Assembly: GCA_035294085.1 (NCBI GenBank)
Contig: DATGLP010000022.1
Location: 1-59,742 of the forward strand
Source: Acidimicrobiales bacterium
Lineage (GTDB): Bacteria > Actinomycetota > Acidimicrobiia > Acidimicrobiales > Bog-793
Direction: 5' to 3'
DNA length: 59,742 nt
Shown here: piece by piece, positions 18,032 to 42,353 of the stretch
Position numbering within the stretch: position 1 is the stretch's first letter
Layout of the letters: every line of letters starts with the position of its first letter
Made by a program: the position numbers and the translations under genes
The notes under the pieces: generated by a model
What the model was told of the DNA's origin: nothing
The model's database searches: none
What the model saw: only the letters and a program-made list of their open reading frames with translations

Positions 18032-18068
18032 CTTCGCGCTCTCTCCTTCCTCCGTCCTCGCTGGACAC

Positions 18069-20089: not shown

Positions 20090-20156
20090 CGCTCACCTGC
20101 CTCGCTCGAGGAAGTCCCTGGTGCCGTCGGCCCGCCTGCCGGCGCGACCGGCCGAG

Positions 20157-20399
20157 TCAGCGCGTGTCCTCGACGTCGAACTCCACGTCCTGCGCCGAAC
20201 CGACGTGAGCTGCGTGCCAGCCGCGGATCCCCTCCATCGTCGCCCGGACGGCCTCCTCCGCCGTCGCGCCGGACTCGTGCGCGGCGGGGCACTCGGGCGC
20301 CTCGGTCCAGTGCCGACAGCCGCCGTCGGTCGGTGGCGCGGCGTGGACGATGATCCGGTACACCTCCCGGCGCGCCGCGCCGCTGTCTCGATCCCCCAC
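20157..20399 (-). CDS. Small HicB-like domain protein
   Basis: Eighty residues, starting at GTG with GGGAGC upstream. YRIIVHAAPPTDGGCRHW followed by GATAEEAVRATMEGIRGW resembles the partial RNase-H fold of HicB antitoxins, in which a strand-rich start is followed by a DTxEEAlxNixEAI helix. The C-terminal DNA-binding domain of full HicB proteins is missing and no HicA toxin gene is adjacent. It lies inside the ring-cleavage operon, 18 bases after the Rieske oxygenase stop, where electron-transfer partners are usually found. It has only one or two Cys, so it is not a ferredoxin. Confidence 0.5.
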   Translation of the reverse strand: MGDRDSGAARREVYRIIVHAAPPTDGGCRHWTEAPECPAAHESGATAEEAVRATMEGIRGWHAAHVGSAQDVEFDVEDTR

Positions 20400-20417
20400 G
20401 CCGCCGCTCCCGCGACC

Positions 20418-21596
20418 TCAGCTCTGGGCGAAGCCGACGGCGTGCTCGGGCCTCGGGTAGTGGAAGCGGATGATCTCGTTGGCAGCGGGATCGCGCACGA
20501 GCGCCATCGGCTCCTCGCCCCGCTCGACCCGGTCGATCTGCTCGGCCAGCATGCGGCGGAGCAGGGCGATGCCACGGTCGCCCGCCCCGAGGTGCTCCTT
20601 GGTACGGTCGGCGATCCTGCCCTGCGTCTCCCACGCCATCTGGTCTTGCACCTCGAAGGTCAGCATGTCGTAGCCGCCGTCCTCCGTGCGACCGAAGTCG
20701 CGCGGGAGCACCTTCATCTCCCGGATCTCGGACTCGGGGTCCGCGTCCATCCCCTCGGTCGGGTAGAACCGCATCTCGAAGACGTAGGTGTTCTCGTCGT
20801 CGACCGGGACGCGCCAGTGCAGCAGGTCGTCGCGCACGCCGTCACCGATCCGCAGCATGTTCGGGAAGATGAGCGGCGGGCGGACCTCGACGCCCGGGTT
20901 GTCGCCCCCGTACACGACGGTCTTCGTGATGCCCCACTCGCAGCGCTCGAAGTCGTAGCTCACGATCGGGCGCTCGTAGTACGCCGCCCGGATGCGGTCC
21001 GACTCGCCGGCCGGGAAGCCGAGCTCGCGCAGCATGTGGGCGTGCAGGTAGTACGTGTGCGTCGTGTCGGCCGTGTTCTCCTGGATCTGGAGCCAGTTGC
21101 ACTCGAGCGGGCCGCGCAGCCAGAGCGTGCGCCAGCCGTTGCGCATCACGAGCACGTCCCAGCGCGGCAGGAGCGGCGCCGGCTCGGGGCCAAGGTAGGC
21201 GAAGAGGAGCCCGCACAGACGCTGCACGGGGTAGGCGTTGATGCGGATCCGCCGCTTGTAGGCCTCCGACGGCTCGAACGGCTGCTCGATGCACTGCCCC
21301 CCGTCGTAGGCGAACTTCCACCCGTGGTAGGGGCAGCGGATGCCGTCCGGCTCGAGGAAGCCGTAGCGCAGCGAGCAGGACCGGTGCGCGCACTGCTCCG
21401 CGAAGAGCGCGTACTCGCCCGAGGGCTGCAGCGCCAGGACGAGGTCCTCGCCGAGGATTCGGAGGCGCATCATCGGTCGCTCGGGGCTGACCTGGTTCGC
21501 CAGCGCGACGGGGTGCCAGTAGCGACGGAGCAGGTTGCCGCAGGGGGTGCCGGGGCCGACCCGCGTCAGGCGCTCGTTCATCTCCTTGCTCAGCAT
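20418..21596 (-). CDS. Rieske non-heme iron oxygenase, alpha subunit (phthalate-4,5-dioxygenase-like)
   Basis: A 392-residue oxygenase. The Rieske [2Fe-2S] ligands are Cys69, His71, Cys88 and His91 (CAHRS and CPYHGW). The catalytic iron site is NTADTTHTYYLH, with His180 and His185. The start LRRYWHPVALANQV and the long C-terminal domain fit the phthalate dioxygenase / carbazole-type single-component alpha subunits. Such enzymes hydroxylate or demethylate aromatic acids using electrons from a reductase. No reductase gene is present in the window, so it must be supplied from elsewhere. It is followed by the small HicB-like gene and the dioxygenase. Confidence 0.92.
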   Translation of the reverse strand: MLSKEMNERLTRVGPGTPCGNLLRRYWHPVALANQVSPERPMMRLRILGEDLVLALQPSGEYALFAEQCAHRSCSLRYGFLEPDGIRCPYHGWKFAYDGGQCIEQPFEPSEAYKRRIRINAYPVQRLCGLLFAYLGPEPAPLLPRWDVLVMRNGWRTLWLRGPLECNWLQIQENTADTTHTYYLHAHMLRELGFPAGESDRIRAAYYERPIVSYDFERCEWGITKTVVYGGDNPGVEVRPPLIFPNMLRIGDGVRDDLLHWRVPVDDENTYVFEMRFYPTEGMDADPESEIREMKVLPRDFGRTEDGGYDMLTFEVQDQMAWETQGRIADRTKEHLGAGDRGIALLRRMLAEQIDRVERGEEPMALVRDPAANEIIRFHYPRPEHAVGFAQS

Positions 21597-21732: not shown

Positions 21733-22707
21733 CTAGCGCCGGGACTCGGGCAGCGCCAGCCCGAGCAGCCCCGCCGCGGTAGCGCCGAGGATCCCGGCCT
21801 TCGCGTCCTCGGGAACCGGGAGGCCGCGGACGTGCTCGATCCGGTCAGCGAACTCCTCGGGCGTCTTCACGTAGGGAAAGTCGGTCCCGAAGACGAGGCG
21901 GTCGTGGCCCACCGTGTCGCAGGCGCAGCGCAGCGCCGGGGCGTGCCGCATCGCCGTGTCGTAGAACAGGCGCCGCACGCCCTCCTCGGACGACCCGGAA
22001 CCCTCAGCGATGCCGCTCGAGCGCCACCCATCCTCGGCCCGCCGCACGTGCGAGGCGATCCGGCCGTGAATGAACGGGAGCGTCCCGCCCAGGTGCGGCA
22101 CGATGATGCGCAGGCGAGGGTTGCGGACGAGCACGCCGGACAGGAGCAGGCGCACGGCCGCGATCGTGTCCTCGAACATCGCGCCCACCGAACGGTCCAT
22201 GCCGTAGCTGTTCGGCCCGAACCCGTCGTAGAGCATCGTCGGGTGGAGGAACACCGTGAGCGCCCGCCGGTCGAGCTCCGCGTACAGCGGTGCGAAGACG
22301 GGGTCGTCGAGCTGTCGCCCGAGCACGCTCGTGCTCATCGCGACGCCCGCGACGCGCGGCTCGCCGACGAGGCGGTCGAGCTCGGCCAGGGCCGCGTCGA
22401 GGTGCGGGAGGGGCAGGGCGATGAAGGTGGCGAAGCGGCCCGCGAACGTCTCGCAGGTCTCGAGGTAGCACTCGTTCGCCTGCTTCGCGAGGTCGACGGC
22501 AACCTTGGGGTCCTCGTAGTAGGGCTGGAGGACGCCGACGGAGAGCACCTGCAGGTCGACGCCGACGCGGTCCATGAGCTCGACCCGCTCGGCGAGCGAC
22601 AGGCTGCTCAGCGGCGCCGCGCTGAGGCGCGGGAGCGCGCCACCGTGCTCCTCCACCCGGCGCAGGAAGTCCGGCGGGAACAGGTGGGCGTGGACGTCGA
22701 CGATCAC
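21733..22707 (-). CDS. Amidohydrolase-2 family protein (ACMSD/resorcylate decarboxylase-like)
   Basis: A 324-residue TIM-barrel metal hydrolase. It begins IVDVHAHLFPPDF (His6, His8 metal ligands), continues with TVFLHPTM, IVPHLGGTLPFIHGR and the terminal metal Asp region VFGTDFPYVKTPEEF. This is the group of aminocarboxymuconate-semialdehyde and resorcylate decarboxylases, so ring or side-chain decarboxylation is likely. GTG 22707 was chosen for its GGGGAGGGG ribosome site. Sixteen bases upstream ends a broken ABC ATPase fragment. A frameshifted copy of this gene's start lies at 30020-30273. Confidence 0.85.
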   Translation of the reverse strand: MIVDVHAHLFPPDFLRRVEEHGGALPRLSAAPLSSLSLAERVELMDRVGVDLQVLSVGVLQPYYEDPKVAVDLAKQANECYLETCETFAGRFATFIALPLPHLDAALAELDRLVGEPRVAGVAMSTSVLGRQLDDPVFAPLYAELDRRALTVFLHPTMLYDGFGPNSYGMDRSVGAMFEDTIAAVRLLLSGVLVRNPRLRIIVPHLGGTLPFIHGRIASHVRRAEDGWRSSGIAEGSGSSEEGVRRLFYDTAMRHAPALRCACDTVGHDRLVFGTDFPYVKTPEEFADRIEHVRGLPVPEDAKAGILGATAAGLLGLALPESRR

Positions 22708-22829
22708 CGGCGATCCCCTCCCCTCACGCCGTCGGCGAGCCGGCAGCGGCATCCTCGGCGGCCCGGACGCCGAGCTCCTCGACGATCAGCTGCCGCAGCT
22801 TGATCGCCGGTGGGCGTACGGTCCCCTCC
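22470..22829. repeat. Left copy of a diverged direct repeat
   Basis: About 360 bases spanning the amidohydrolase 5' part, a 16-base spacer and the last 35 codons of an ABC ATPase. It aligns collinearly with 30030-30380 at roughly 80 percent identity by eye. Long shared blocks include GACGCCGAGCTCCTCGACGA in both copies. Homology stops near 22829 on this side, which marks the left edge of the intervening block. Confidence 0.8.
22724..22829 (-). pseudogene. 3' fragment of an ABC transporter ATPase gene
   Basis: The reading frame ends AIKLRQLIVEELGVRAAEDA and stops at 22724, matching almost residue for residue the end of the intact ATPase at 30290 (AIKLRELIVEELGVQAAEDA). Only about 35 codons remain; the sequence upstream is unrelated and no start exists. 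It is a truncated remnant sitting exactly where the full ATPase would lie relative to the amidohydrolase. Confidence 0.85.
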
Positions 22830-23590
22830 GCAGGCGTGACGCGCAGCCAGCCTACGCAGGCTCGCCGATGACGCGGTCGCCGATGACGGTCGCCGAGCAC
22901 GTCATTCGCCAGGCCGATTTCCCGGACTCTCCACACAACGCCATCCTGTCGCGCGGCAGCATCGCGCTGCCCCCACGCTAGGGGGACGTGCGCGAACGTC
23001 AAGGCCGCCAGATCGATCAATGGAACGAGATCGAAGGGTCCCGAGCTTCGACCCTCACCACCTTTCGGCCCTCGCCACCTTCTGTCGGGCCACAGACCTC
23101 TCGCCGGCGCTGGCGGAGGCCTGGTTCACCACCTGGCCGCGCGGACCAAGCCCCGACGACGCGATCCGGGTCGGGCTCCGGCACGACAGCCGCACCCAGT
23201 TCACCTCGACCGACGACCGCCAGGTCCCCGACGCCCGCGGCGTCTAGGCGTTCTGCACTGCCTCCCGGCACCCCAACGGGATCGCCTCCCTCGAACGGCT
23301 GTATCGGACCCTCGAGGAGGAGGCGTCTGACCCAACGACCTCCCCGACTTCGACGCGGCGCTGGCGCCATCGCGGCCTGGGTCGAGGACGACGACACACA
23401 CCGCCCGCGCGAGCCGCTGGGCCGAGGCACCACCTCGGCCGAAGCCCGAGCGGGGCGCTCAGCCAACGCACCTCCGCCGCCTGACTGTCGACCAGCGCGG
23501 GAGTCGCCTCGCTGCACGCGACGGGCGTGTGGCACCACCACGCCACGACGGCACCGCCCCCCCACCACACCAGCACCGGCCACAGGTCGG
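22830..23590. other. Left edge of the inserted block
   Basis: This 761-base stretch has no intact gene. It runs from the end of the repeat homology to the biotin carrier gene and contains the transposase remnant described separately (23150-23455). No terminal inverted repeat or target duplication could be seen by eye. Confidence 0.5.
23150..23455 (+). pseudogene. Degraded transposase, integrase-core (rve) fragment
   Basis: Read across two frameshifts, the plus strand shows the order seen in IS3/IS481-type integrase cores: GLRHDSRTQFTS (second catalytic Asp), then HPNGIASLERLYRTLEEEAS (catalytic Glu helix), then AAIAAWVEDDDTHRPREPLG and TSAEARA, equivalent to the usual AIAAWIEDYNxxRPHxALGxxTPxE end. 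An in-frame TAG lies at 23245-23247. It is broken and truncated, with no N-terminal part recognised, and it borders the inserted block. Confidence 0.65.
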
Positions 23591-24154
23591 CTATGCCACC
23601 TCCAGCTCGATCAGAGCCTGACCGAACTCAACGAACTCCTCGTTCTGCACGAGGACGCGCTTCACACGCCCTGCCTTGCCCGCCAGAACGGCTGTGAACA
23701 CCTTCATCGCCTCGATCAGACCGACGGTCGTCTCGGGACGGACCGTGTCGCCTACCTGCACGTAGGGCGGAGCACCCGGTTCCGGCGCGCTGTAGAAGGT
23801 ACCGACCAGCGGCGCCAGTACCACATCCCCAGGTGCTTCGACCTGAGGACCGGCACGAGGACCGTTCGGCGCCGCTTCGGTCTCCTGCGAGCACGAAGCC
23901 GCGTCCACGGCTGTCTCGTCGCGGTTGCCTACCCTTGGCGCAACCGCCGATCCGACGGTACCCGCGGGGTCGACCGCAACCGGGGATGAGGCGAGGGCGG
24001 CCGGCACGCCGAACCGGTTCAGTTCGGCCACGGCGGCGGCATCTACGCCGATCACGAGCTCGCCGTTCTCGGCCACGACGCGCAGCGCGCCGATGCGTCT
24101 GTTCGCCACCAGCTCGACGAGCTCCTGGATCTCAGAATTCCGCAACTCGAACAC
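23591..24154 (-). CDS. Biotin carboxyl carrier protein
   Basis: A 187-residue AccB-like carrier. The C-terminal biotinyl domain (about 108-187) contains the biotinylation motif EAMK at 148-151, with Lys151 as acceptor, after PLVGTFYSAPEPGAPPY, the thumb region typical of acetyl-CoA carboxylase BCCPs. A Pro/Ala-rich linker joins it to an N-terminal helical region (LRNSEIQELVELVANRRIGA) that usually docks on the carboxylase. GTG start with GGGGAG upstream. It is the last gene of the carboxylase block and would carry CO2 between the biotin carboxylase (28509) and the carboxyltransferase (26881). Confidence 0.9.
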   Translation of the reverse strand: MFELRNSEIQELVELVANRRIGALRVVAENGELVIGVDAAAVAELNRFGVPAALASSPVAVDPAGTVGSAVAPRVGNRDETAVDAASCSQETEAAPNGPRAGPQVEAPGDVVLAPLVGTFYSAPEPGAPPYVQVGDTVRPETTVGLIEAMKVFTAVLAGKAGRVKRVLVQNEEFVEFGQALIELEVA

Positions 24155-24716
24155 CGCAGATCTCCCCTCGCCGCAACAACTCCCCTGCCGACCGAAACGG
24201 CACCGAGCCGACCTTCGCCGGGCCGCCAGCGCCCGTGCCAGATCAGCGGTCCGACCGCACTCCTGGGCCGCAGCTTCTCAGCGGTACGGCTCCTCTCAGA
24301 ACTCGGACGACCGCGTCGCCTCCACAGCTGGGTGTTCACGCAGCGAACGATGCGTGTGTGGAGCAGCGACGTCGACGCAGCCGAACGGCCAGGAGACAGT
24401 GCGCGCGCAAGGAGCTGCACCTGACCGCCACCGAGACCACCGGGAAGACGGTCACCACCGACCTGATCAGCGTGCGTCTGAAGACAGCCGACGGGTCGCC
24501 ATGTGCCATCTGCACCCTCGTACCCGTGCTCGATCTTGTAGCCCGTCTGCGAGGCGTTGACGACCGTGCCTTGGGCATCGACGAGGGTGCCTCGGGCACC
24601 GACGACGGCGTCGACGGAGTCGCACTCCTGCTCGGCCAGGCCAGAGCCGGGCCATTCGTTCTGGCGACGTGCGGGTGCTGTCTCGTGGTCTTCCCTGCCC
24701 CTGATGGCCAGCATTC
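24155..24716. other. 562-base gap inside the carboxylase block
   Basis: No intact gene is seen between the biotin carrier and the amidohydrolase gene. The part next to the amidohydrolase (24495-24620, minus strand) may be the remnant of a sugar-kinase-like gene; the rest (24160-24490) holds nothing I recognise. The decayed DNA suggests a gene was lost here. Confidence 0.5.
24495..24620 (-). pseudogene. Possible remnant of an FGGY-family carbohydrate kinase N-terminus
   Basis: The minus strand reads SVDAVVGARGTLVDAQGTVV, then NASQTGYKIEHGYEG. This resembles the first ATP-binding strand pair of FGGY kinases (G-T-x-G-x-R-x-x-L-V-D-x-x-G-x-V-V, then Y-x-x-x-H-x-x-x-G). Similarity fades within about 45 residues, no kinase core follows and there is no start codon context. 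A chance resemblance is possible. Confidence 0.35.
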
Positions 24717-25586
24717 CTACTCCAGGCCGAACAGCCGTACCGCGTTGTCCCGAATGATCTTCTGCTTCGACGCCGCCGGGATCGGGAGCGCGTTGAATTC
24801 CTCCATCCAGCGATCAACCGACACGATCCCTGAGTCGGATCCGAACAGCATCTTGTCGGACAGGATGCTCTTGGCGTGGTTCACCAGGTCCTGGGAGAAG
24901 TGCTTTGGCGCCCACCCTGACAGGTCCATGAAGTAGTTGGCCTTGTGGCGCGCCACGGCCAGATTCTCGGCATCGTACGGCCATGAGGGATGGGCACCGA
25001 TGATCTTCAGCTCGGGGAAGTCGGCGGCCACGTCGTCGAGGTATGGAATGGGCCTGGTGTACTTGAGCTTGATGCCCATGCCACCTGGTGTCCCAGCGCC
25101 TGCCGCCGCCATGCCCGTGTGGAACAGCACGATGAGGCCGAGTTCCTGGATCGTCTCCCACAGGGGGTAGAAGCGGGGGTCGTTCGGGTAGAAGTGCTGG
25201 CGGGCTGGGTTGAACTCCCCGATACCCTTCAGTCCAAGGTCGGCACACCGGCGGACTTCCTCGATGGCCAACCGCCCCATCCAGGGGTCCACGATGCCGA
25301 ACCCGATCAGTACGTCGGAGTTCGCCTCGACCACCTTGGCCACGTAGTCGTTCGGCAGCCCGCGTCGCCCGGTCACGGTCTCGTCCGTCGTGTTCAGGAC
25401 GACAGCCATCATCCGACGGCGCCGGTACTCCTCCGCCATCTCGTCCGCGGGGACGATCTCGTACCGGCGGCCCGCGTACCGCGCCATCTGGCGTGCGGTC
25501 TCGCCGGCCGCCTCGCGGGCGGCAGCGTCGCGGAGGTGGACGTGCACGTCGATCGCCACCACATCGCCGATGGTCATCCGTGTCAT
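24717..25586 (-). CDS. Amidohydrolase-2 family protein of the carboxylase block
   Basis: A 289-residue TIM-barrel hydrolase. AIDVHVHLRD has His15 and His17; LIVLFHTGMAAAG, LKIIGAHPSWPYDAENLAVA and LFGSDSGIVSVDRWMEEF supply the remaining His and Asp ligands. ATG 25586 follows GGAGGGG. It is related to, but distinct from, the one at 21733. The group includes decarboxylases and lactone or amide hydrolases. It lies directly after the family III CoA-transferase gene and is probably cotranscribed. Base composition is visibly less GC-rich than in the flanking operons. Confidence 0.85.
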   Translation of the reverse strand: MTRMTIGDVVAIDVHVHLRDAAAREAAGETARQMARYAGRRYEIVPADEMAEEYRRRRMMAVVLNTTDETVTGRRGLPNDYVAKVVEANSDVLIGFGIVDPWMGRLAIEEVRRCADLGLKGIGEFNPARQHFYPNDPRFYPLWETIQELGLIVLFHTGMAAAGAGTPGGMGIKLKYTRPIPYLDDVAADFPELKIIGAHPSWPYDAENLAVARHKANYFMDLSGWAPKHFSQDLVNHAKSILSDKMLFGSDSGIVSVDRWMEEFNALPIPAASKQKIIRDNAVRLFGLE

Positions 25587-25638
25587 GCAGGCACCCCTCC
25601 GTCCGTAGGTCGTCTGTCCGGGCAGTAGCGGGAACGCG

Positions 25639-26865
25639 TCACTCCTGCCCTCCGACTGCAGCGCCGGCGCCGCCGCTCGCGACCGCTTGCCGATCAATGC
25701 CCACCTCGGCCAGGACCGCCTCGGTGTGCTCACCAACCCACGGCACCGCGGCAGAGCGGTCGGGCGCCGCGAACCCCGCGATGGGGCTGCCGACGCCTGT
25801 GAAGGCCCGTTCGCCGCTGCCGAACCGGTGGAACAGATCCAGGGACGTGACGAGCTCGTCTTCGGTCGCTTCCGCAACCGTCAGGATTGGGGCGACAGGC
25901 ACGTCGGCCGCGGTCAGTCGCTCCAGCCATACCTGACGGGGCTCGGTGACGAACACCCTTGACAGCACGTCGTGCAGCTCCTCGTAGTGCTCGCGACGAG
26001 CAGCCGGGCTCGCGAAGCGCTCGTCGTCCGCCAGTTCCGGAACCCCCAGCGCGCTGACGAGGCTCGTCCAGAACTTCGACACCGACGACAGGTGGATGGC
26101 GATCGGCAGCCCATCGGCGCAGACGAAGCCGTGCGACTGCGAGGCCCGGACACGCGACATTCGGTCCGCCACCTCCCCCGACGAGAAGTAGTTGGCGAAG
26201 GCGATCTCCTGGATGGAGACGCAGGCACCCAGCATCGTGGCCGTCACGTGCGCCCCCCGGTCGGTGCGGCTCCGCTGGACCAGAGCGGCCAGCACGGCGA
26301 GGGCTCCCTGCATGCCGGCGAGGTGGTCGGCTAGGGCCGGTCCACTGGGTGTGGGTCGCGTCATGTCGGTGAACTGGCTCCACAGCCCGCTGCGGGCCTG
26401 CGCGATGGCGTCATACACGGGCCGCTGGTCGCTGTCGTTCATTCCCCTGATCGAGCAGTAGACGAGCCTGAGGTTGTGCTGCATCAGGTCGCCGTAGCCG
26501 AGGCCGAGGGCGTCGAGGAACCCGGGCCGGAAGTTCTCGATCAACACGTCCGCTGATTCGATCAGTCGGACAACGGCTCGTTGACCGGCCTCGGTACGGA
26601 TGTCGACGGCGACGCTGCGCTTGCCGCGGTTGATCGACTTGAAGGCGTCGCTCGACTCCCTGCTGCGGGCATCCCAGCGACGGAAGGGATCGCCGGTTCC
26701 CGGCAGCTCGACCTTGATCACGTCGGCACCGAGGTCGAGCAGCACCATGGCGGCGTACGGGCCACTGATCACATTGGCGAGCTCGATGACACGGATGCCG
26801 TGCAGCGGCGGCATCGGCTTTCCGTCCTGGTGCTCGCTCGCCGGGTGGTGGATTGCTGTGGTCAT
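25639..26865 (-). CDS. Family III CoA-transferase (CaiB/BaiF type), carboxylase block
   Basis: A 408-residue member of the formyl-CoA/carnitine CoA-transferase family: LHGIRVIELANVISGPYAAM near 20-39, ADVIKVELPGTGDPFRRW, SINRGKRSVAVD, and PALADHLAGMQGALAVLAAL, where the Asp is the expected acyl-anhydride residue. The usual donor is succinyl-CoA or another thioester. It starts 15 bases after the carboxyltransferase stop. Activation of an organic acid to its CoA ester before or after carboxylation is the likely role. It is distinct from the GC-richer family III enzyme at 35894. Confidence 0.9.
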   Translation of the reverse strand: MTTAIHHPASEHQDGKPMPPLHGIRVIELANVISGPYAAMVLLDLGADVIKVELPGTGDPFRRWDARSRESSDAFKSINRGKRSVAVDIRTEAGQRAVVRLIESADVLIENFRPGFLDALGLGYGDLMQHNLRLVYCSIRGMNDSDQRPVYDAIAQARSGLWSQFTDMTRPTPSGPALADHLAGMQGALAVLAALVQRSRTDRGAHVTATMLGACVSIQEIAFANYFSSGEVADRMSRVRASQSHGFVCADGLPIAIHLSSVSKFWTSLVSALGVPELADDERFASPAARREHYEELHDVLSRVFVTEPRQVWLERLTAADVPVAPILTVAEATEDELVTSLDLFHRFGSGERAFTGVGSPIAGFAAPDRSAAVPWVGEHTEAVLAEVGIDRQAVASGGAGAAVGGQE

Positions 26866-26880
26866 TGTCGGTCGGTCCTG

Positions 26881-28359
26881 TCAGCGGACGATGGTGAGGG
26901 AGCTGTCGCCGAGCGACAGGAAGAACCGCGAGATCTCGGGATTGTTGGCCACTGCCGTGGCCAGCTCTGCCAAGCCTGAGCCCCTGGGATACACACGGCG
27001 GTACTCGTCGTAGGTGGCCGTATACGCTCGGGGAGCTGGCGAGTAGACACGACCGGCTTCATCGCCGACGTAGAGCCGGAGGATGAGCTCCTCGTCGGTG
27101 ATCGACGCGCCGAGGCGCTGGCGGACCTCGTCGAGGCCGACCTCCGGTGGCGGCCGGCGTGCCGCCAACTCGGCGGCACGAGGCCGATCGAGGATCTGCT
27201 CTCTGATCCCGGGGTCCATCACGTCGACGGCTTCACGGCCCCTGCGACCCAAGGCGTACTCGATGACGTCGTCGGTCACGGTCCCGTAACGCTTCCCCGT
27301 GGCGACGTTGATGGCCGCCTGACTGCCGACGACCTGCGACAGGGGCGTCACCATGATCGGGTAGCCGAACTCGGCTCGCACACGGGCGACCTCCGCGAGC
27401 ACCTCCGGCAGTCGGTGCGCCATGCCGAGCTGCTGGAGCTGGAAGGCGAGGTGCGCGATCATCCCACCCGGCACCTGATGGGTGTACAGCGACTGATCGA
27501 AGTCCGTCGGGCTGCCCTCGGGCATGCCGGTGACCGACGCCACGTAGGACAGATGGTCGCGAACCCGTTCCAGCGGCGCCAGGTCGATCGCTGCCGTGAA
27601 GCCGAGCGCCTCGAGGTTCTGCACCGTGCCGAAGATGGACGGCTGCGAGGTGCCGCTGGCCAGTGGCGGAATGGCCGTGTGGAAGATGGTCACGCCGAGC
27701 TCGGCAGCGATCACGTAGTTCAACGGCGCCATCCCGTTGTTGGAGTGCGCATGGAACTCCACGGGTACATCGCCGGCCGCGTGCAGCACGACCGGAATCA
27801 ACTCACGAGTCCTCTCTGGCGTGAGCAGCCCACCGACGTCTTTGAAGCAGATCCGATACGGCTTCAATGCTGCGATCGCCTTGGCTCGATTCTCGTAGTA
27901 GTCGGTCGTGTGTCGCGGGGACACCGAGTAGATGAGGTTGACGACCGACTTGATCCCATGGGAGGCGAGCCGGTCGCGCTCCTCCCCGAGAGCGTCAGGG
28001 TCGTTCCACGGGTCAGAGATCCGCGTCGTGGTGATCCCCAGTTCCACCACTCGATCCAGCAGTACCCCGCGCACGGAGCTCGGTACTGCCCGCGCGAAGT
28101 ACGGCGTGCCACCGCCGTGCAGCCGAAGCTGCGTCCGACGAGCCAACGGGACACCCAGCTTCAGCCAATCCCAGGGATTCTCCCGAAGGTCCTTGACATG
28201 GCGAGCGAAGAGGCCGGGCTGGAGGAACTCAACACCGTCGAACCCCGCCGCATCGATGTCCGCTACCGTCGGCAGCATCGCATCGATGTTCAGGCGCGCC
28301 GCCCACAGGCTCTGCGCACCATCTCGCAGGGTGGTGTCCACGAAACGGACCTCGGGCAC
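26881..28359 (-). CDS. Biotin-dependent carboxyltransferase subunit (PycB/OadA/transcarboxylase-5S-like)
   Basis: A 492-residue protein with an HMGL-like TIM barrel (about 1-290), starting VRFVDTTLRDGAQSLW. It has ICFKDVGGLLTP, containing the functional Lys normally carboxylated, and EFHAHSNNGMAP with metal-binding His. The C-terminal PYC/OADA domain follows (YTHQVPGGMIAHLAFQLQQLG, then LSQVVGSQAAINVATG). It lacks the biotin domain found at the end of many relatives; that function is on the separate carrier gene. Relatives carboxylate or decarboxylate 2-oxoacids such as pyruvate and oxaloacetate. The acceptor here is unknown. GTG start with GGGGGTAGG. Confidence 0.9.
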   Translation of the reverse strand: MPEVRFVDTTLRDGAQSLWAARLNIDAMLPTVADIDAAGFDGVEFLQPGLFARHVKDLRENPWDWLKLGVPLARRTQLRLHGGGTPYFARAVPSSVRGVLLDRVVELGITTTRISDPWNDPDALGEERDRLASHGIKSVVNLIYSVSPRHTTDYYENRAKAIAALKPYRICFKDVGGLLTPERTRELIPVVLHAAGDVPVEFHAHSNNGMAPLNYVIAAELGVTIFHTAIPPLASGTSQPSIFGTVQNLEALGFTAAIDLAPLERVRDHLSYVASVTGMPEGSPTDFDQSLYTHQVPGGMIAHLAFQLQQLGMAHRLPEVLAEVARVRAEFGYPIMVTPLSQVVGSQAAINVATGKRYGTVTDDVIEYALGRRGREAVDVMDPGIREQILDRPRAAELAARRPPPEVGLDEVRQRLGASITDEELILRLYVGDEAGRVYSPAPRAYTATYDEYRRVYPRGSGLAELATAVANNPEISRFFLSLGDSSLTIVR

Positions 28360-28508
28360 GGCCTACCCCCTACCGGACTGCCGACAGTATTCGACTGTGG
28401 AACGATGACGAAGATCCCGGCGATCGACCCCTGACATCGCACGGGCTGCAGGGTCTGGACGCGGGATCTTCGTCGCACGGATTCATACGCAGCCTCGCGG
28501 ATCCATAC

Positions 28509-29891
28509 TCAGCCCGACCACCCTCCGTTCGTGCTGGCCGCAACCAGCCCCGAGTGCTCTTCGAGCCAACGTGTCGAGTACGCCCCAGCGGCGAATGCCG
28601 TACTTGCGAGGATGCGCGCCTGTAGACCTGCCGTCGTCGTGATGCCGCCAATCCGGAGCTCGCGGAGGGCCCCCGCGAGCACGGCTATCGCCTCGGCGCG
28701 GGTACGGCCATGAGCCATGACCTTCATGACCAACGAGTCGTAGAAGGGCGGCACCGCTGACCCGACCCTGAGGGATGAGTCGACACGCACTCCGGGCCCG
28801 CCTGGCAGCTGCAGGGAGCTCACGCGACCTGGCGATGGCTGGAAGTTCCTGGTCGGGTCCTCGGCGTTGATCCGGCACTCTATGGCCGATCCGCGCACCT
28901 CGACCTCGCGCTGCAGTGGCGGGGCGGCGGTCCCTGCCGCGAGCGCCAACTGCAAGGCAACGAGGTCCCATCCGGTCACGAGCTCGGTGATGCCGTGCTC
29001 GACCTGGAGACGAGGGTTGACCTCGAGAAAGTAGAACGCGTCGCGCGCCGGATCGACGATGAATTCGACCGTGCCGAGCCCGTCGTAGTTGACCGTCCTC
29101 ATCAGCCGAACGGCAGCGTCTCGTATTGCCTGCTGGAGGTGAGCCGCCAGGAACGGGGCCGGCGCCTCCTCGATCAGCTTCTGATTGCGACGCTGTATCG
29201 AGCAATCTCGATCGCCGAAGTGCACCGTCGCACCCTGTCCATCCGACGCGATCTGCACCTCGACGTGCCGGGCGAACGGGACGAACGACTCGAGGTAGAG
29301 TCGGGAGTCGCCGAACGCTGCAGCCGCTTCCGCCGACGCCGCCGAGAATTCGAGCGCCAGCTGCGACGCGTCTTCGATCAGCCGCAGGCCGCGCCCTCCA
29401 CCACCGGCGACGGCCTTCAGCAGCAGCGGGAAGCCGACGTCGCGAGCACAGCTCGCAGCCTCCTCCGCAGTCGCTAGCGGGCCCGAGCCTCGAGCAGTCG
29501 GAAGGCCCGCTGCCTCGGCCGCGGCGCGCGCCGCTACCTTGTCCCCGAACGTCTCGAGCAGCTCGCGACGCGGCCCGACGAACCGGAGCCCGGTGTCAGC
29601 GCACGCCCGAGCGAGCGCAGGGCTCTCGGAGAGGAAGCCGTAGCCGGGATGCACCGCGTCGCAGTGGGTACCGATCGCAGCCGACACGATCGCCTCGACT
29701 CGCAGATAGCTCTCGGCCGGCCTGTTGCCACCGATGCAGACCGCGCGATCGGCCAACTCAGCGGCGAGGCTGTCTCGGTCGGCTGGAGTGGTCGCTACGA
29801 CGCACTCAAGGCCCAGCTTTCTGCACGCTCGGATGACTCGCAGTGCGATCTCGCCGCGATTTGCGATCAGCACCCGCCGGATGGGCCTCAT
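28509..29891 (-). CDS. Biotin carboxylase subunit (AccC-like)
   Basis: A 460-residue ATP-grasp biotin carboxylase of normal length. IRRVLIANRGEIALRVIRAC at the start, DAVHPGYGFLSE, LKAVAGGGGRGLRL (ATP-grasp glycine loop, about 157-170), GDRDCSIQRRNQKLIEEAPA, FLEVNPRLQVEHGITE and AIECRINAEDP are all present. It carboxylates the biotin on the carrier protein using ATP and bicarbonate. ATG 29891 was chosen at the start of homology, although the frame stays open upstream into the pseudogene region. The C-terminal domain is intact. It is first in the carboxylase block, 149 bases before the carboxyltransferase. Confidence 0.93.
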   Translation of the reverse strand: MRPIRRVLIANRGEIALRVIRACRKLGLECVVATTPADRDSLAAELADRAVCIGGNRPAESYLRVEAIVSAAIGTHCDAVHPGYGFLSESPALARACADTGLRFVGPRRELLETFGDKVAARAAAEAAGLPTARGSGPLATAEEAASCARDVGFPLLLKAVAGGGGRGLRLIEDASQLALEFSAASAEAAAAFGDSRLYLESFVPFARHVEVQIASDGQGATVHFGDRDCSIQRRNQKLIEEAPAPFLAAHLQQAIRDAAVRLMRTVNYDGLGTVEFIVDPARDAFYFLEVNPRLQVEHGITELVTGWDLVALQLALAAGTAAPPLQREVEVRGSAIECRINAEDPTRNFQPSPGRVSSLQLPGGPGVRVDSSLRVGSAVPPFYDSLVMKVMAHGRTRAEAIAVLAGALRELRIGGITTTAGLQARILASTAFAAGAYSTRWLEEHSGLVAASTNGGWSG

Positions 29892-30019: not shown

Positions 30020-30273
30020 ATGCGGTCTGTTCGGTGTTCGGCTGCTTCGGGAGGTCGACGGCGACGCGACCCTGCGGTCCTCGAAGCAGGGCGGGAGGAC
30101 GTCGCCGGAGAGCACCCGCAGATCGAGGCGGGCGCGGTCCAGGCGCTCGAACCCGCTCGGCGAGCGACATCCTGCCCAGCGGCGCCGCGTAGAGGCGCGC
30201 GAGCGCCACCGTGCTCTCCCACTCGGCGCAGGTCGTCCGGCGGGGACAGGAGGACGTGGGCGTCGGCGAGCAC
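30020..30273 (-). pseudogene. Frameshifted 5' fragment of the amidohydrolase gene
   Basis: Reading from a GTG at 30273, LADAHVLLSPPDDLRRVGEHGG matches the start of the intact amidohydrolase at 22707 (shown there as VDVHAHLFPPDFLRRVEEHGG). The match then jumps frame to LARLYAAPLGRMSLAERV, again to LDLRVLSGDVLPPCFEDRRVA, and back to VAVDLPKQPN. At least three frameshifts and loss of the second metal His show it is dead. It lies 16 bases after the ATPase stop, the same spacing as in the left copy. Confidence 0.85.
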
Positions 30274-30380
30274 GGTCGACGCCCAGCCTTCACGCCTTCG
30301 GGGAGGCCGCCGCAGCGTCCTCGGCGGCCTGGACGCCGAGCTCCTCGACGATGAGCTCCCGCAGCTTGATCGCCGTGGGG
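30030..30380. repeat. Right copy of the diverged direct repeat
   Basis: The counterpart of 22470-22829. It contains the real ATPase 3' end, the same 16-base spacer and the decayed amidohydrolase start. The two copies bracket about 7.2 kb carrying the carboxylase genes and the transposase remnant. Confidence 0.8.
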
Positions 30381-31105
30381 TCCGCGCGCACCTGCGACTG
30401 GGTCCGCGGGCGCTCGAGCGGCACGTCGGCGATGTCGACGATCCTTCCCGGATGCGAGCGGAAGAGCGCGATCCGGTCGGAGAGGAAGATCGCCTCGTCG
30501 ATGTCGTGGGTCACGAAGACCGTCGTCATCCGGAACTGCGACCACAGCCGCTGGAGCTCGACCTGCAGCGCCTCCCGGGTGAAGTTGTCGAGGTGGGAGA
30601 ACGGCTCGTCCATGAGGAGCACCTTCGGCTGCGTCACGAGCGCTCGCGCGATCCCGACGCGCTGCTGCATCCCGCCTGAGAGCGTGTAGGGCGGCTGCTC
30701 GGAGACCGAGCCCAGCCCGACGAGGCGGAGCACCTCCATCGCCGCGGCCCGGGCTTCCTTGCCGGTGATCCCGCGAGCCTCGAGGCCCAGCTCCACGTTC
30801 CGGCAGACGCTCCGCCAGGGCAGGAGCGCTGTCTCCTGGAAGACGAACGCCATGTCACGCGAGCTCGTGCGCAGCGGCTCGCCCTCGAAGAGCACCTCGC
30901 CGGCATCCGGGGTCGTGAGGTTGTCGAGGATCCGCAGCAGGGTCGTCTTGCCGCAGCCGCTCGGTCCGACCAGGCTGAGGAACTCGCCCCGCCGCACCGA
31001 GAGGCTGACGTCGTAGAGCGCCGCGACCCGCGTCCGCTTGACCTCGAAGACCTTCGTGATGTTGCGGGCCTCGAGGATCGCCTGGCCGTCCACGTCGGCG
31101 GTCAT
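30290..31105 (-). CDS. ABC transporter ATP-binding protein, NitT/TauT type (system II)
   Basis: A 271-residue ATPase. Walker A GPSGCGKTT is at 47-55, the signature LSGGMQQ at 142-148, Walker B VLLMDEP at 162-168, and the switch His in VTHDIDEAI. ATG 31105 overlaps the stop of the preceding permease by four bases (ATGA). The last 30 residues are duplicated as a remnant at 22724. It energises the two-permease importer of the operon at 31-34 kb and is the last intact gene of that operon. Confidence 0.9.
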   Translation of the reverse strand: MTADVDGQAILEARNITKVFEVKRTRVAALYDVSLSVRRGEFLSLVGPSGCGKTTLLRILDNLTTPDAGEVLFEGEPLRTSSRDMAFVFQETALLPWRSVCRNVELGLEARGITGKEARAAAMEVLRLVGLGSVSEQPPYTLSGGMQQRVGIARALVTQPKVLLMDEPFSHLDNFTREALQVELQRLWSQFRMTTVFVTHDIDEAIFLSDRIALFRSHPGRIVDIADVPLERPRTQSQVRADPTAIKLRELIVEELGVQAAEDAAAASPKA

Positions 31106-32028
31106 GCCTGCCCCATCGTGCCCGTCGCGCGCACCCAGCTGAAGAACATTCTCTCGATCCCCTTGAACAGTCCGACGATTCCGAGACCAATCCCCGCCGT
31201 GACGACGACGATGGCGAGGATCCTGTCCGTCGCGAGCTCCGTCTGGTAGAGCTGCAGGAGGTAGCCGATGCCGACGTTCGAGAACTCGAGCTCGGCGATG
31301 ATGAGGCCGACGAGGCTGACGCTCGCGCACAGGCGCGCGCCGGCGAGGATGTAGGGCACGGCGGCGGGGACTCTGATCTTGCGCGTCGTCTGCCAGGCAG
31401 TGAGCCCCGTCGCGCGGGCGACGTCGAGGTAGGTCCTGTTCACGTTGCGCACGCCGGCCATCGTGTTGAGGATCACGACGAAGATGTTCGTCAGCACGGC
31501 GAAGAGGATCCGGCCCTCGGACGCGACGCCGATCCAGACGATGAGCAGCGGGATGAGGACCACGCGCGGCGTCGCCATGAGGAAGTTCACGAACGGGTTC
31601 AGGAGTCGCTCCACCAGGCGGAAGCGACCCATCACCGTGCCGATCAGGACGCCCCCGACCATGCCGATCGCGAGCGAGATCGCCCACTCCGACATCGTCG
31701 AGGCGAGCGCCGACCCGAGGGTCCCCGAGTCGAACAGGTACCGGTAGGCGCGCGCGACCCGCCACGGGTTCGAGAAGAGGAGCGGGTTCAGCCACAGGCT
31801 GGAGAGCTGCCAGGCGCCGAGCAGCAGCGCCATCGCCCCCGCCGGCAGCAGGACGCGCAGCCAGCGCTCCCTCGTGCGGCTGCGCCCCGGCAGGCTGCGA
31901 AGGAGCGCCGCGACCTCCGCCTCGCGCGCTTCGCGCGCGCGGCTCGCCGAGCGCGCGCCGATCGCGGCTCCCTCCGCGAGCAGGGGCCCAGCCCCGCGGG
32001 ACTCGAGCTCGAGCATCTCGTCGGCCAT
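31102..32028 (-). CDS. ABC transporter permease B, SsuC/TauC type (system II)
   Basis: A 308-residue inner-membrane permease with a longer cytoplasmic N-terminus (about 50 residues) and a first span LLPAGAMALLLGAWQLSSLW. The binding-protein-dependent transport domain has the EAA-type loop YLDVARATGLTAWQTTRKIRVP. It begins four bases after the stop of permease A and overlaps the ATPase start. Two different permeases in one operon suggest a heterodimeric channel, unlike system I. Confidence 0.88.
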   Translation of the reverse strand: MADEMLELESRGAGPLLAEGAAIGARSASRAREAREAEVAALLRSLPGRSRTRERWLRVLLPAGAMALLLGAWQLSSLWLNPLLFSNPWRVARAYRYLFDSGTLGSALASTMSEWAISLAIGMVGGVLIGTVMGRFRLVERLLNPFVNFLMATPRVVLIPLLIVWIGVASEGRILFAVLTNIFVVILNTMAGVRNVNRTYLDVARATGLTAWQTTRKIRVPAAVPYILAGARLCASVSLVGLIIAELEFSNVGIGYLLQLYQTELATDRILAIVVVTAGIGLGIVGLFKGIERMFFSWVRATGTMGQA

Positions 32029-32031
32029 GGC

Positions 32032-32883
32032 TCAGCGGCTCCCGCTCGTCTCCCGGATCCACGGGAAGAGCCGCTCCTCGGCCACTCTGAGGAGCCAGAA
32101 GAGCAGGAAGGCGAGGCCGGTCGCCGACAGGATCGCGGCGATGAGCGCGCCCACCAGCCCCTTCTGCCCGAAGATCTCCGTCAACCCGCCCAGCCCCGCG
32201 TCCCCGACCTCCTGGCCGGCGAGGACCATCCCGAGGGTCGCCATGGCGAGACCGAGGCGAAGGCCGACGAAGATGTACGGCGCGGCCGCCGGGAGGACGA
32301 CCTTCCAGACGCGCTGGCGGCGCCCGAGCGTGAGCGCCCTGCTCACGAGGTGGTAGGTACTGCTCACGTTCCTCACGCCGATCCAGGAGTTCAGCAGGAT
32401 CGGCCAGACCGACAGCACCGTGATGAAGGCGACGCGCGCCACGTAGCCGAAGCCGAACCAGTCCTCCATCACGGGCAGGAGCACGACGACCGGCGTGGCG
32501 ATGCCGATCGTCACGAGCGGGTCGAGCGACATCTCAACGAAGCGGAGCGACCCCATCGCGAGCCCGACGGCGATCCCGAGGACCGCGGCGATGGCGAAGC
32601 CCACGACCTCCTCGGCGACGCTGTCGGCGAACGCGCGCGGCAGCTCGGCGCTGGCAACGATGTGGCCGAACGCGGTCGCGACGGCGCTCGGGGTCGAGAA
32701 GAGGTAGAGCGCGTGCGGGTAGCTGTCGCCGTACCACTGCCAGAGGCCGACGAAGACGGCGACGGCGACGAGGCCGATGCCCCGGCCGTCCCACGCTCGC
32801 AGCAGCGAGCTCGTCCGCGCTGCTGGCGCGTCGGCCGCAGCCGTGCCCGGGTCCTCGACCATCGTCGAACCAGCCACGCTCAT
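32032..32883 (-). CDS. ABC transporter permease A, SsuC/TauC type (system II)
   Basis: A 283-residue permease with spans beginning at IGLVAVAVFVGLWQWYG and an EAA-like loop YHLVSRALTLGRRQRVWKVV. ATG 32883 was chosen because AGAGGG lies seven bases upstream. The ribosome site and start are duplicated 23 bases upstream, creating an eight-codon leader frame whose stop overlaps this ATG. It is located downstream of a strong hairpin that follows the binding-protein gene. Confidence 0.87.
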   Translation of the reverse strand: MSVAGSTMVEDPGTAAADAPAARTSSLLRAWDGRGIGLVAVAVFVGLWQWYGDSYPHALYLFSTPSAVATAFGHIVASAELPRAFADSVAEEVVGFAIAAVLGIAVGLAMGSLRFVEMSLDPLVTIGIATPVVVLLPVMEDWFGFGYVARVAFITVLSVWPILLNSWIGVRNVSSTYHLVSRALTLGRRQRVWKVVLPAAAPYIFVGLRLGLAMATLGMVLAGQEVGDAGLGGLTEIFGQKGLVGALIAAILSATGLAFLLFWLLRVAEERLFPWIRETSGSR

Positions 32884-32920
32884 GCAAGACCCTCTGCCGT
32901 GCTCATGCAAGATCCTCTGC
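32878..32920. repeat. Tandem 20-base repeat containing a ribosome site and start codon
   Basis: The units at 32878-32897 and 32901-32920 are identical at 19 of 20 bases and separated by three bases. On the minus strand each reads AGAGG(G/A)TCTTGCATGAGC, that is, Shine-Dalgarno, spacer and ATG. Confidence 0.85.
32880..32906 (-). CDS. Possible eight-codon leader peptide coupled to permease A
   Basis: ATG 32906 has its own AGAGGA ribosome site and opens an eight-codon frame (MSTAEGLA) whose TGA overlaps the permease ATG (ATGA). It exists because a 20-base unit holding ribosome site and start is repeated. It may be a by-product of the repeat or a device for translational coupling. Confidence 0.35.
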   Translation of the reverse strand: MSTAEGLA

Positions 32921-33020
32921 AGATCCCCGGTCCGCCCTCGCGGCAGCGCTTCCTCGCGTCACACCTGCGACGAGGCCGTGCCGCCCGCCGGGCACCCACC
33001 CGCGCACCGTAGCGCGCGTG

Positions 33021-33054
33021 GTGAGAGGGTGGCGGACACCCGCCACCCTCTCAC
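33021..33054 (-). terminator. Perfect 15-bp hairpin between binding-protein and permease genes
   Basis: GTGAGAGGGTGGCGG (33021-33035) pairs perfectly with 33040-33054 across a four-base loop. There is no T run, so it may be a partial terminator or an RNA-stabilising 3' stem for the binding-protein message. It lies 33 bases after the binding-protein stop at 33087, reading leftwards. Confidence 0.65.
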
Positions 33055-33086
33055 GGAGCGACCCGTCGGACGGGTGCGCCTCGCGC

Positions 33087-34220
33087 CTAGTACGCGTTCG
33101 GGTGCGCCTCATAGACCTTCCAGGCGGCCTTCCACGGCCCGAACACCGCCACCCGGTTCAGCGGACGGAGGCCCGCACCGGCGAACTCGCCGTAGGCCTT
33201 GTAGAAGTCGTAGTTGTACCGGACGATCTGAGGCGTGTAGTCGGACTCCTGGAGCGGCCACAGGTTGAGGCTCTTGAAGATGGTGTGGTCGTTCTCGACG
33301 GCCGACGGCGGATCCGCGTTCAGCGTGTAGTGCTCGGCGTAGGTGACCCAGCGCATCCAGTGGTCGTTGAAGGTCTTCGCGGCCGAGATCCACGCGAGGC
33401 ACAGCGCCTCGACGATCGCCGGGTCGTGCGCGATGAACTGCGGCGTCGCCCCCCAGAAGCTGTCGGCGATGCCGGGGTCGACCTGCGACGCGCGGGCCAG
33501 GACGTACAGGTGCCCGCCGAGCGCGGAGCGCAGGCTCTGCAGCGCAGACACGTGGATCCACGCCGCGTCGGCCTTGCCGGCGATCAGGACGGCGCCGATC
33601 GACGACCCCGACGACGAGCCCGTGACGTCGTAGGTCACCTGGCTCCGCTTCAGGTGCGCGTAGCGCAGCAGTGCCGGCATCAGCGTGTACTCCGCGCTCG
33701 TCGTCGTGCCGACGTCGATGGTCTTGCCCTTCAGCTGGGCGAGCGTCGGCACGTCCCGGGCCACGAAGACGTAGTCGAGGCGCGCCTGGTTCGGCATGAA
33801 GATCTCGAGCGGCAGGTTGATGAGGCTCGGCATGTCGCTGTTGATCGCGTCGATCTTGCCGGCGACGACGGCGTCCTGGCCCGTCGGCGACTCCGCGAGG
33901 GTCAGGCTCGAGGTCGCGCCCCACTTCTGCAGCGTCTGCTCGATGATGTAGCCGAGCGTGTCCTCGACGCCCGGGTGACTCCCGGCCGTCGCGATCGGGA
34001 TGTTCCACCCCTTCAGGTTCGGCGTCCCGCGCGACGTGAAGCCGAGCTTCTTCGCCGTCGTTCTCGTCACCCTCGCTTTCGTCGGCCCACGCTTCTTCGA
34101 GTGGTGCACCGATGCCGGGTGACGGACCGTGGCGCCAGCCGGGAAGGCGCCGAGGCCGAGGACGAGCAGCGGCGCGACGGCGAGGCTGGCGATGAGTGAA
34201 ACCTTGGATCTGCGATGCAT
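33087..34220 (-). CDS. ABC transporter substrate-binding protein, NitT/TauT type (system II)
   Basis: A 377-residue exported binding protein. The signal peptide is MHRRSKVSLIASLAVAPLLV, with a likely cleavage near GATV (about 30), and no lipobox Cys. A basic His/Lys-rich linker (33-60) precedes the binding fold (KGWNIPIATAGSHPGVEDTL; TGQDAVVAGKIDAINSDMPS; LKGKTIDVGTTTSAEYTL). ATG 34220 was taken because the signal peptide starts exactly there. It is the first gene of importer operon II and divergent from the two-cupin gene at 34693. The ligand is unknown, but the gene order suggests an aromatic acid used by the ring-cleavage operon. Confidence 0.82.
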   Translation of the reverse strand: MHRRSKVSLIASLAVAPLLVLGLGAFPAGATVRHPASVHHSKKRGPTKARVTRTTAKKLGFTSRGTPNLKGWNIPIATAGSHPGVEDTLGYIIEQTLQKWGATSSLTLAESPTGQDAVVAGKIDAINSDMPSLINLPLEIFMPNQARLDYVFVARDVPTLAQLKGKTIDVGTTTSAEYTLMPALLRYAHLKRSQVTYDVTGSSSGSSIGAVLIAGKADAAWIHVSALQSLRSALGGHLYVLARASQVDPGIADSFWGATPQFIAHDPAIVEALCLAWISAAKTFNDHWMRWVTYAEHYTLNADPPSAVENDHTIFKSLNLWPLQESDYTPQIVRYNYDFYKAYGEFAGAGLRPLNRVAVFGPWKAAWKVYEAHPNAY

Positions 34221-34692
34221 CTCGGTCAGAACCCCCCAGTTCGATCGACCGCCCAGAGGCGTGGTGCACGACCCGCCTCTGGCGGTCACGGAACGCGTAC
34301 GTTCGAGCGGCCGATGCGCCACGCAACGGCCCCCGGTCGCAGCACCGTCTTGCGACGCTCCCAGGGTACGGGCGCTGGCGTGCACGTCAAGCACGGCCGA
34401 CCACTCAATGGAACGAATCGCTGGAGCGAAGAAGAGTCCCGCCGCAGCTGCCGGCTTCGCGGCGTGGACGGGCCGCGGGCGAGCGCCGCGGCGCCAGCTC
34501 GGCAGGCCGTCCTCGAGCCCGGTCAGCACGGCGAGACCGCTGCACCCCTTTGCCGTTGGTTCCGGGTGGCGTAGGCTCGGGATCGGCGCGCGGGCGGCGA
34601 ACGGGCGGCGCGACATGGCGTCTTGCGCCGACGCTCCGCCCGCCCTCGCGCTGGCCGCGGCATTCGGCACGTCGATCGCAGGGGGTTCGGAC
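34221..34692. promoter_or_regulatory. Divergent intergenic region between importer II and the two-cupin gene
   Basis: This 472-base stretch must hold promoters for both directions, but no convincing -35/-10 pair was seen. It contains CCACTCAATGGAACGAA (34401-34417), similar to a sequence at 8544-8560 near importer I. Short frames on both strands lack support. Confidence 0.35.
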
Positions 34693-35853
34693 ATGGCAGA
34701 GGTGGACGTGCGCCGCAGCGAACCGGCCGTAGCACCCCCGGCCACCCTCGAGGAGCTCGAGCTTCGCGACCCCTACCGTGAGTGGCTGGCACGCGAGGGC
34801 GTCGAGGTGATCACGGACCACGCCTTCGGCGACCTGCTCGCCGTCGAGCTCGGGCCGTGGCCTCGCAAGGGCGGGCGCGGGGCGGTCGTCAACCTCGCGG
34901 GCGAGACCTTGCTGACCGACGCGCACCTCGTCGAGATCGCGCCCGCGGGCCGGTCCGAGCCCGAGCACCACCTCTACGAGGAGCTCGTCTACGTCCTCGC
35001 CGGCCACGGGGAGACGACCATCTGGTCCGGCAACCGCCGGGCCCGCGTCGAGTGGGGCGCGGGCGCGCTCTTCCCGATCCCGCTCAACGCGTGGTACGAG
35101 CACCGCAACCTGAGCGGGACCGAGCCGCTCCGGTACCTCGCCGTCACGAACGCGCCGCCGATGATGCGCCTGCTGGCCGACGACGACGCCGTGTTCGACT
35201 GCCCGCTCGCCTTCCCCGGCCGCTACGAGATCGACCCCGACTTCTACTCCGCCGGCGGCCGGCTGTACGCGCCGCGGGTGTGGCGCTCGAACTTCGTGCC
35301 GGACGCGCCGGCGGCCGACGTCTACGCCTGGAAGGAGCGCGGCGGCGGGGGCGCCAACGTGCTCCTCGAGATGGGGGGCAACACCTCGCTCAAGCCGCAC
35401 ATCTCCGAGTTCCCGGTCGGCACCTACAAGAAGGCCCACCGGCACGGGCCGGGCTACCACCTCGTCATCCTCGGCGGCCACGGCTTCAGTCTGCTGTGGA
35501 CGGCGCCGGACATGTCCGACCTCGAGAAGCGGGACTGGTCGAAGAACTCGATGGTCATCATCCCGAGCCACGCCTGCTTCCACCAGCACTTCAACACCGG
35601 CACCGCACGCGCCCGCTACCTCGCCATCCGGCCCGGGAACATGGGGACCACCGCGCCCCCCTCCTACCGCCGTCCCGACGCCCAGGTGAGCATCCAGGAA
35701 GGCGGCTGGCAGATCGAGTACGAGGACGAGGCGAGGCAGGTCCACGAGCTCTTCGAGGCCGAGCTGGCCCGGCGCGGCGCGCCGTGCCGGATGCGGGCGT
35801 TCGTCCCCTGGTGCACGGGCGAGGTCGGCCCGACCGACGAGCGCGACACCTGA
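34693..35853 (+). CDS. Two-domain cupin protein, paralogue of the one at 10162
   Basis: A 386-residue bicupin. The N-terminal cupin is near 85-165 (PEHHLYEELVYVLAGHGETT). The C-terminal cupin has GTYKKAHRHGPGYHLVILGG and FHQHFNTGTARARYLAIRPG. It shares FHQHFNTG and the C-terminal IEYEDEA with the minus-strand paralogue. ATG 34693 follows GCAGGGGG. It ends RRGAPCRMRAFVPW, with Cys and Trp residues absent from the paralogue. It is divergent from importer II. It is likely a metal-dependent oxygenase or isomerase of the imported compound; the activity is unknown. Confidence 0.75.
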   Translation: MAEVDVRRSEPAVAPPATLEELELRDPYREWLAREGVEVITDHAFGDLLAVELGPWPRKGGRGAVVNLAGETLLTDAHLVEIAPAGRSEPEHHLYEELVYVLAGHGETTIWSGNRRARVEWGAGALFPIPLNAWYEHRNLSGTEPLRYLAVTNAPPMMRLLADDDAVFDCPLAFPGRYEIDPDFYSAGGRLYAPRVWRSNFVPDAPAADVYAWKERGGGGANVLLEMGGNTSLKPHISEFPVGTYKKAHRHGPGYHLVILGGHGFSLLWTAPDMSDLEKRDWSKNSMVIIPSHACFHQHFNTGTARARYLAIRPGNMGTTAPPSYRRPDAQVSIQEGGWQIEYEDEARQVHELFEAELARRGAPCRMRAFVPWCTGEVGPTDERDT

Positions 35854-42349: not shown

Positions 42350-42353
42350 GGCG

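Follow-up and report, generated by a model that had tools for sequence, protein, structure and literature searches.

What does a biotin-dependent carboxylase do when it is encoded beside a coenzyme A (CoA)-transferase and an amidohydrolase? We addressed this question for a block of five genes at 23591-29891 of contig DATGLP010000022.1 (assembly GCA_035294085.1), from an Acidimicrobiales bacterium; the window referred to below is the whole stretch analyzed, 59,742 nucleotides in length. An earlier note, made from the sequence alone, had placed the five genes together in one orientation and described a carboxyltransferase without its own biotin domain alongside a separate carrier protein. Pfam confirmed each gene assignment, all on the minus strand, and the absence of a biotin domain from the carboxyltransferase. 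In gene order, the block contains:

28509..29891, minus strand: biotin carboxylase (BC) subunit, 460 aa (Pfam Biotin_carb_N, CPSase_L_D2 and Biotin_carb_C; Met start at 29891)
26881..28359, minus strand: stand-alone carboxyltransferase (CT), 492 aa (Pfam HMGL-like and PYC_OADA, trees, residues and an AlphaFold2 (AF2) model)
25639..26865, minus strand: family III CoA-transferase, 408 aa (Pfam CoA_transf_3; catalytic Asp kept)
24717..25586, minus strand: amidohydrolase-superfamily protein, 289 aa, predicted beta-ketoacyl-CoA hydrolase (Pfam Amidohydro_2; identities)
23591..24154, minus strand: biotin carboxyl carrier protein (BCCP), 187 aa (Pfam Biotin_lipoyl; EAMK biotinylation motif)

The intergenic gaps are 149 bp (BC-CT), 15 bp (CT-CoA-transferase), 52 bp (CoA-transferase-amidohydrolase) and 562 bp (amidohydrolase-BCCP). 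Judged from this layout, the genes from BC to BCCP likely form one operon; we go no further than likely because of the 149 bp gap between BC and CT and the 562 bp gap before BCCP.

We propose that the block encodes a kinase-free route of ketone carboxylation, CoA transfer and C-C hydrolysis, and we give this reading somewhat better than an even chance. BC would load CO2 from bicarbonate onto the biotin of BCCP at the expense of ATP, and the metal-dependent CT would transfer the carboxyl group to an unphosphorylated ketone (or a similarly activated carbonyl compound), at the alpha-carbon, to give a beta-keto acid. This acid would next be converted to a beta-ketoacyl-CoA by the family III CoA-transferase, with succinyl-CoA, for example, as a possible CoA donor, and the amidohydrolase would cut a C-C bond by hydrolysis to yield a shorter carboxylic acid and, in the case of a methyl ketone acceptor, acetyl-CoA. 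We infer the acceptor, the order of steps and the hydrolysis by analogy with the Hpe pathway.

HpeCBA, encoded in the HpeHICBADEF cluster of Rhodococcus rhodochrous GD02, is a three-part biotin enzyme shown experimentally to carboxylate phospho-acetophenones with one ATP, and a CoA ligase and a beta-ketoacyl-CoA hydrolase are proposed to act downstream; its homologues include XccBCA of Aromatoleum aromaticum EbN1 and AcvABCDEF of Sphingobium SYK-6 (PMC9618137). The Hpe/Acv/Xcc systems and the window both have a three-part biotin carboxylase with a stand-alone CT and predicted CoA activation of the product, and Hpe-like clusters and the window both encode an amidohydrolase-superfamily protein (the beta-ketoacyl-CoA hydrolase in the former). 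However, the window cluster contains neither kinase nor phosphatase genes, it carries a CoA-transferase III where the known systems have a CoA ligase, its CT falls in a distinct sister clade, and its amidohydrolase belongs to a different subfamily. The order of carboxylation, CoA ester formation and hydrolysis that the earlier note had raised is plausible in that the Hpe pathway, with its experimentally shown carboxylation step, follows the same logic. The note had also known of no described pathway with this gene set. While we found no description of a cluster with the exact set in the open-access literature, HpeCBA together with HpeE and HpeF (PMC9618137) is a close analogue. Plasmid clusters in R. 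leguminosarum and P. putida YC-AE1 encode a kinase, BCCP, BC, CT, HAD phosphatase, CoA ligase and amidohydrolase and, judging from gene content, are of the Hpe/Acv type; the window BC is 51-53% identical to the BC of these related clusters. Acetophenone carboxylase Apc, a multi-subunit enzyme, spends two ATP to convert a ketone to a beta-keto acid (PMC5214803). The proposed window route would resemble it in ATP-dependent ketone carboxylation to a beta-keto acid, but the enzyme class is different; HyuA-like genes, a further point of comparison with Apc, adjoin the CT in some relatives of the window and not in the window itself.

The earlier note had assigned the CT to a family that acts on 2-oxoacids. 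The AF2 model of the window CT (pLDDT 89.8) has the TIM-barrel CT fold with an Asp, Lys, His, His metal site (D13, K173, H203 and H205, near-universal ligands across the family), and it matched V. cholerae OadA (2nx9, Z 39.0), Methylobacillus PycB (5ks8, Z 38.7) and transcarboxylase 5S with pyruvate (1rqh, Z 38.0) at 26-30% identity. Fold (Z 38-39) and metal ligands are thus common to the window CT and to pyruvate carboxylase subunit B, OadA and 5S, but the window CT has no fused biotin domain, lies in another clade, matches the PycB/OadA/5S profiles only well below their curated cut-offs and lacks the residues of the pyruvate site. These are a W-GGAT motif, an LLRG Arg and a Tyr, which we take to be pyruvate-site residues from their roles in the R. 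etli enzyme; they are intact in pyruvate carboxylase (PC) and OadA, and replaced both in the clade of the window CT and in the kinase-linked groups. Because the pocket residues are replaced and the host genome encodes a separate full-length PC, the comparison makes it most unlikely that the window CT is a PC subunit. The branch to which it belongs lacks the 2-oxoacid site, although the fold is that of PC and 5S.

We placed the CT in two trees, one of 44 CTs (200 bootstrap trees) and one of 92 rows. The kinase-free CTs, including that of the window, were monophyletic in the 44-CT tree (support 100/99; 200/200 bootstrap trees), and the 92-row tree agreed on this clade except for L112, a long-branch CT that fell outside it. 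The window CT falls outside the kinase-linked (Hpe/Acv/Xcc-type) groups, to which its clade is sister (35-40% identity to the kinase-linked CTs compared), and PC/OadA form a separate well-supported group.

To survey gene neighborhoods, open reading frames (ORFs) of fetched loci were scored against a chosen marker set, beyond which further neighbors may be present; counts were restricted to CT loci with at least 3 kb of flank on each side, and neighbors were taken within 5 kb. A kinase was found near 0 of 43 window-like CTs (which include L112 and two CTs from the single locus L036) versus 10 of 13 kinase-linked loci, and a phosphatase near 0/43 versus 11/13. The CTs of the kinase-linked loci score about 260-310 bits against the window CT, and nine of the 13 loci carry a CoA ligase. 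A CouO-like amidohydrolase lies near 10 of the 43 window-like CTs (L112 among the 10, and L036 counted twice) and a CoA-transferase III near five. The amidohydrolase linkage was found in Actinophytocola, Blastococcus, Marinobacter and Binatota-type metagenome-assembled genomes (MAGs), and the CoA-transferase in Actinophytocola, Marinobacter and Roseicyclus. Because CT-amidohydrolase neighbors recur in Actinomycetota, Marinobacter and Binatota-type MAGs, this linkage is not chance. The earlier note's view of a split biotin carboxylase distinct from PC, with linkage conserved to the amidohydrolase and less widely to the CoA-transferase, is supported. The findings that the note would have held against that view, close homology to PC combined with a lack of conserved linkage, were not obtained: identity to solved relatives is about 20-30%, and the linkage recurs.

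The window amidohydrolase is 58-61% identical to amidohydrolases adjoining other kinase-free CTs, with which it forms its own subfamily, and 41-45% identical to a CouO/HpeF-like set (without GD02 HpeF itself), from which it is distinct. Identity is 42% and 41%, over the full length, to the amidohydrolases of the R. leguminosarum and P. putida YC-AE1 clusters, respectively, and 44% to a protein annotated as 4-hydroxyphenyl-beta-ketoacyl-CoA hydrolase in a ferulate cluster. The HxH, His, His and Asp residues are retained. CouO, itself an amidohydrolase-superfamily member, performs a final deacetylation (PMC4737184); CouO-type hydrolases share the superfamily with the window protein, but motif and gene context differ. 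The protein, which the earlier note had called a ring-type hydrolase, is a relative of CouO-like beta-ketoacyl-CoA hydrolases and not evidently ring-type. Its AF2 model was set aside for low confidence (pLDDT 62). AH2, the other amidohydrolase encoded in the window, shows no close relationship to those of the two plasmid clusters. The CoA-transferases encoded with other kinase-free CTs are 38-47% identical to that of the block, which shares 35% identity with the second copy in the window; they too have the catalytic Asp. We considered VceA/VceB of SYK-6 as a CoA-transferase/amidohydrolase pair and rejected it, as VceB is described as a thioesterase.

It may be that the window CT is one of a large clade of CTs, in Actinomycetota, Proteobacteria, Binatota and SAR202 Chloroflexi, that carboxylates unphosphorylated ketones or related carbonyls and feeds CoA-transferase-activated C-C cleavage, and whose genomes carry many stand-alone CT paralogues drawing on one BC and carrier; we hold this broader proposal tentatively, at somewhat less than an even chance. 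Ketone carboxylation by such biotin enzymes has been shown biochemically for phosphorylated aryl ketones (2022), and a kinase-free clade with conserved partners would, if true, extend this chemistry to other substrates. It would also provide candidates for the enzymes that break down ketones in soil and deep-ocean bacteria, as well as enzymes for CO2 fixation onto ketones.

The SAR202-VII-2 MAG QEVV01 (Chloroflexi; L018, L019, L020, L022, L023 and L026) encodes six or more paralogous kinase-free CTs, none of which has a BC or BCCP gene within 5 kb, and Binatota-type MAGs have a similar pattern; such paralogues may share one biotin carboxylase and carrier. HyuA-type hydantoinase/oxoprolinase genes lie beside or near the CT module in L012, L013, L016 and L033, and an isochorismatase-family amidase lies near the CT in the Marinobacter loci L012 and L013, both possible substrate clues. 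Three Rhodobacterales loci (L008, L067 and L081) combine the CT with a TRAP transporter and an isochorismatase, and no amidohydrolase was seen in them. Because the CT of other lineages has isochorismatase, HyuA and TRAP genes near it, substrates may differ within the clade.

Several observations weigh against a kinase-free ketone route in the window. The 562-bp gap sets BCCP apart from the other four genes, and many kinase-free CTs elsewhere are solitary, without BC, BCCP or amidohydrolase. Two of the Rhodobacterales loci, L067 and L081, also carry a citrate-synthase-like lyase and a CoA-transferase, so that a lyase is present without the amidohydrolase. In the subfamily of the window amidohydrolase, E-F-N-P stands in place of the K-F-H-P of CouO/HpeF-like proteins, and because of this replacement the reaction of the window enzyme may differ from the CouO/HpeF type. 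Finally, the window CT has a long branch in the tree and A302-H303 in place of the S-N found in 68 of 70 kinase-free rows, because of which altered or weakened activity is possible.

The borders of the block bear on its origin. It lies between the two copies of an imperfect direct repeat (about 340 bp; 81-90% identity in blocks), and the amidohydrolase copy on the right is broken. The features concerned, with the neighboring transporter, are:

22474..22814, strand not assigned: left direct-repeat copy, with an ABC ATPase end remnant and the start of the intact amidohydrolase AH2 (21733-22752) (repeat comparison)
30036..30380, strand not assigned: right direct-repeat copy, with the ABC ATPase gene end and a decayed amidohydrolase start (81-90% blocks; frames broken)
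30290..34745, minus strand: ABC transporter, with the ATPase as the C-terminal part of ORF 30290-32062, permeases at 31102-32028 and 32032-32910, and an NMT1-like binding protein in ORF 33087-34745

Pfam supports the transporter ATPase, the permease at 31102-32028 and the binding protein, and the permease at 32032-32910 was assigned by sequence and position only. Four frames of the block (CT, CoA-transferase, amidohydrolase and BCCP) have a GC content at third codon positions (GC3) of 0.78-0.86, versus 0.94-0.98 in most surrounding genes; the baseline is window neighbors only, and some frames take in additional sequence upstream. None of the 11 other genomes sampled from the family gave a CT match at the cut-off applied, and across the order only 3 of 298 genomes did, the window's genome among the three. 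Because of the bracketing repeat, the lower GC3 and the rarity of the CT in the family and order, the block looks to have been horizontally acquired and inserted into an existing aromatic cluster. That cluster includes a meta-cleavage set at 14439-21596 (aldolase, acetaldehyde dehydrogenase, hydratase, alpha/beta hydrolase, LigB-type dioxygenase and LigXa-type Rieske oxygenase). These neighbors suggest an aromatic ketone as the acceptor, a hint weakened in that they seem to be part of the recipient cluster and not of the inserted block; the ABC transporter genes probably belong to the recipient as well. At the left border, 22990-23580 is a stretch without recognizable genes. We do not claim a decayed insertion sequence there: plus-strand pieces looked integrase-like by eye, and searches of Pfam at E 5, plasmids and the host genome gave nothing.

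Four other explanations were weighed against the kinase-free ketone route. The one with most to recommend it, although still unlikely, is a carboxylase for a non-ketone acceptor, for example an acid derived from an amide, imide or ring; the carboxylated product would be CoA-activated before the amidohydrolase hydrolyzed another bond. The isochorismatase-family amidases, HyuA-type genes and TRAP/ABC transporters near the CT in several relatives would fit this, as would the E-F-N-P motif that sets the window amidohydrolase apart from CouO types, but the sister enzymes use methyl ketones and the extra genes of the relatives are not in the window cluster. Somewhat less probable is membership of the Hpe/Acv/Xcc phosphophenylethanone pathway, with the kinase and phosphatase encoded elsewhere in the genome. 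The same three-part carboxylase, a related amidohydrolase and the neighboring meta-cleavage genes are consistent with it. According to a survey cited in a 2026 paper (PMC13101465), carboxylase genes shared a cluster with kinase genes in only 52 of 836 cases; kinase-free carboxylase clusters have therefore been seen before. However, the kinase-linked groups do not include the window CT, and the searches gave little: the marker survey found no kinase marker in a 24-kb stretch of the window, and an HpeH-like query matched genome-wide only part of an 828-aa phosphoenolpyruvate-utilizing protein, through the query's C-terminal end, the HpeI-like ATP-binding half not having been searched. A Tm-1-like kinase had no match in the host genome, in a search run without a positive control, and no HAD-type phosphatase gene was found in the cluster, with only a weak 31% match genome-wide.

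It is very improbable that the block is a decaying acquired island whose carboxylase is by now functionless. The long branch and A302-H303 of the CT, the broken amidohydrolase copy and the gene-less stretch at the borders would suit such decay, but all five genes are open and intact, and the CT metal ligands, the EAMK motif and the CoA-transferase Asp are retained. Least probable of all is a split PycB/OadA-type 2-oxoacid carboxylase or biotin-dependent decarboxylase with unrelated neighbors. Overall fold, the PYC_OADA domain and the metal site speak for it, and the earlier note had allowed for a reverse, decarboxylating reaction. We rejected this identity on the missing pocket residues, the separate clade and the absence of OadB or OadG genes beside the CT; the host's own PC and the recurrent CT-amidohydrolase linkage point the same way. 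Elsewhere in the window, at 41534-43388, a CoA-transferase family I subunit adjoins a DUF6282/amidohydrolase-like protein, and a second IclR-type regulator is encoded at 43625-44422.

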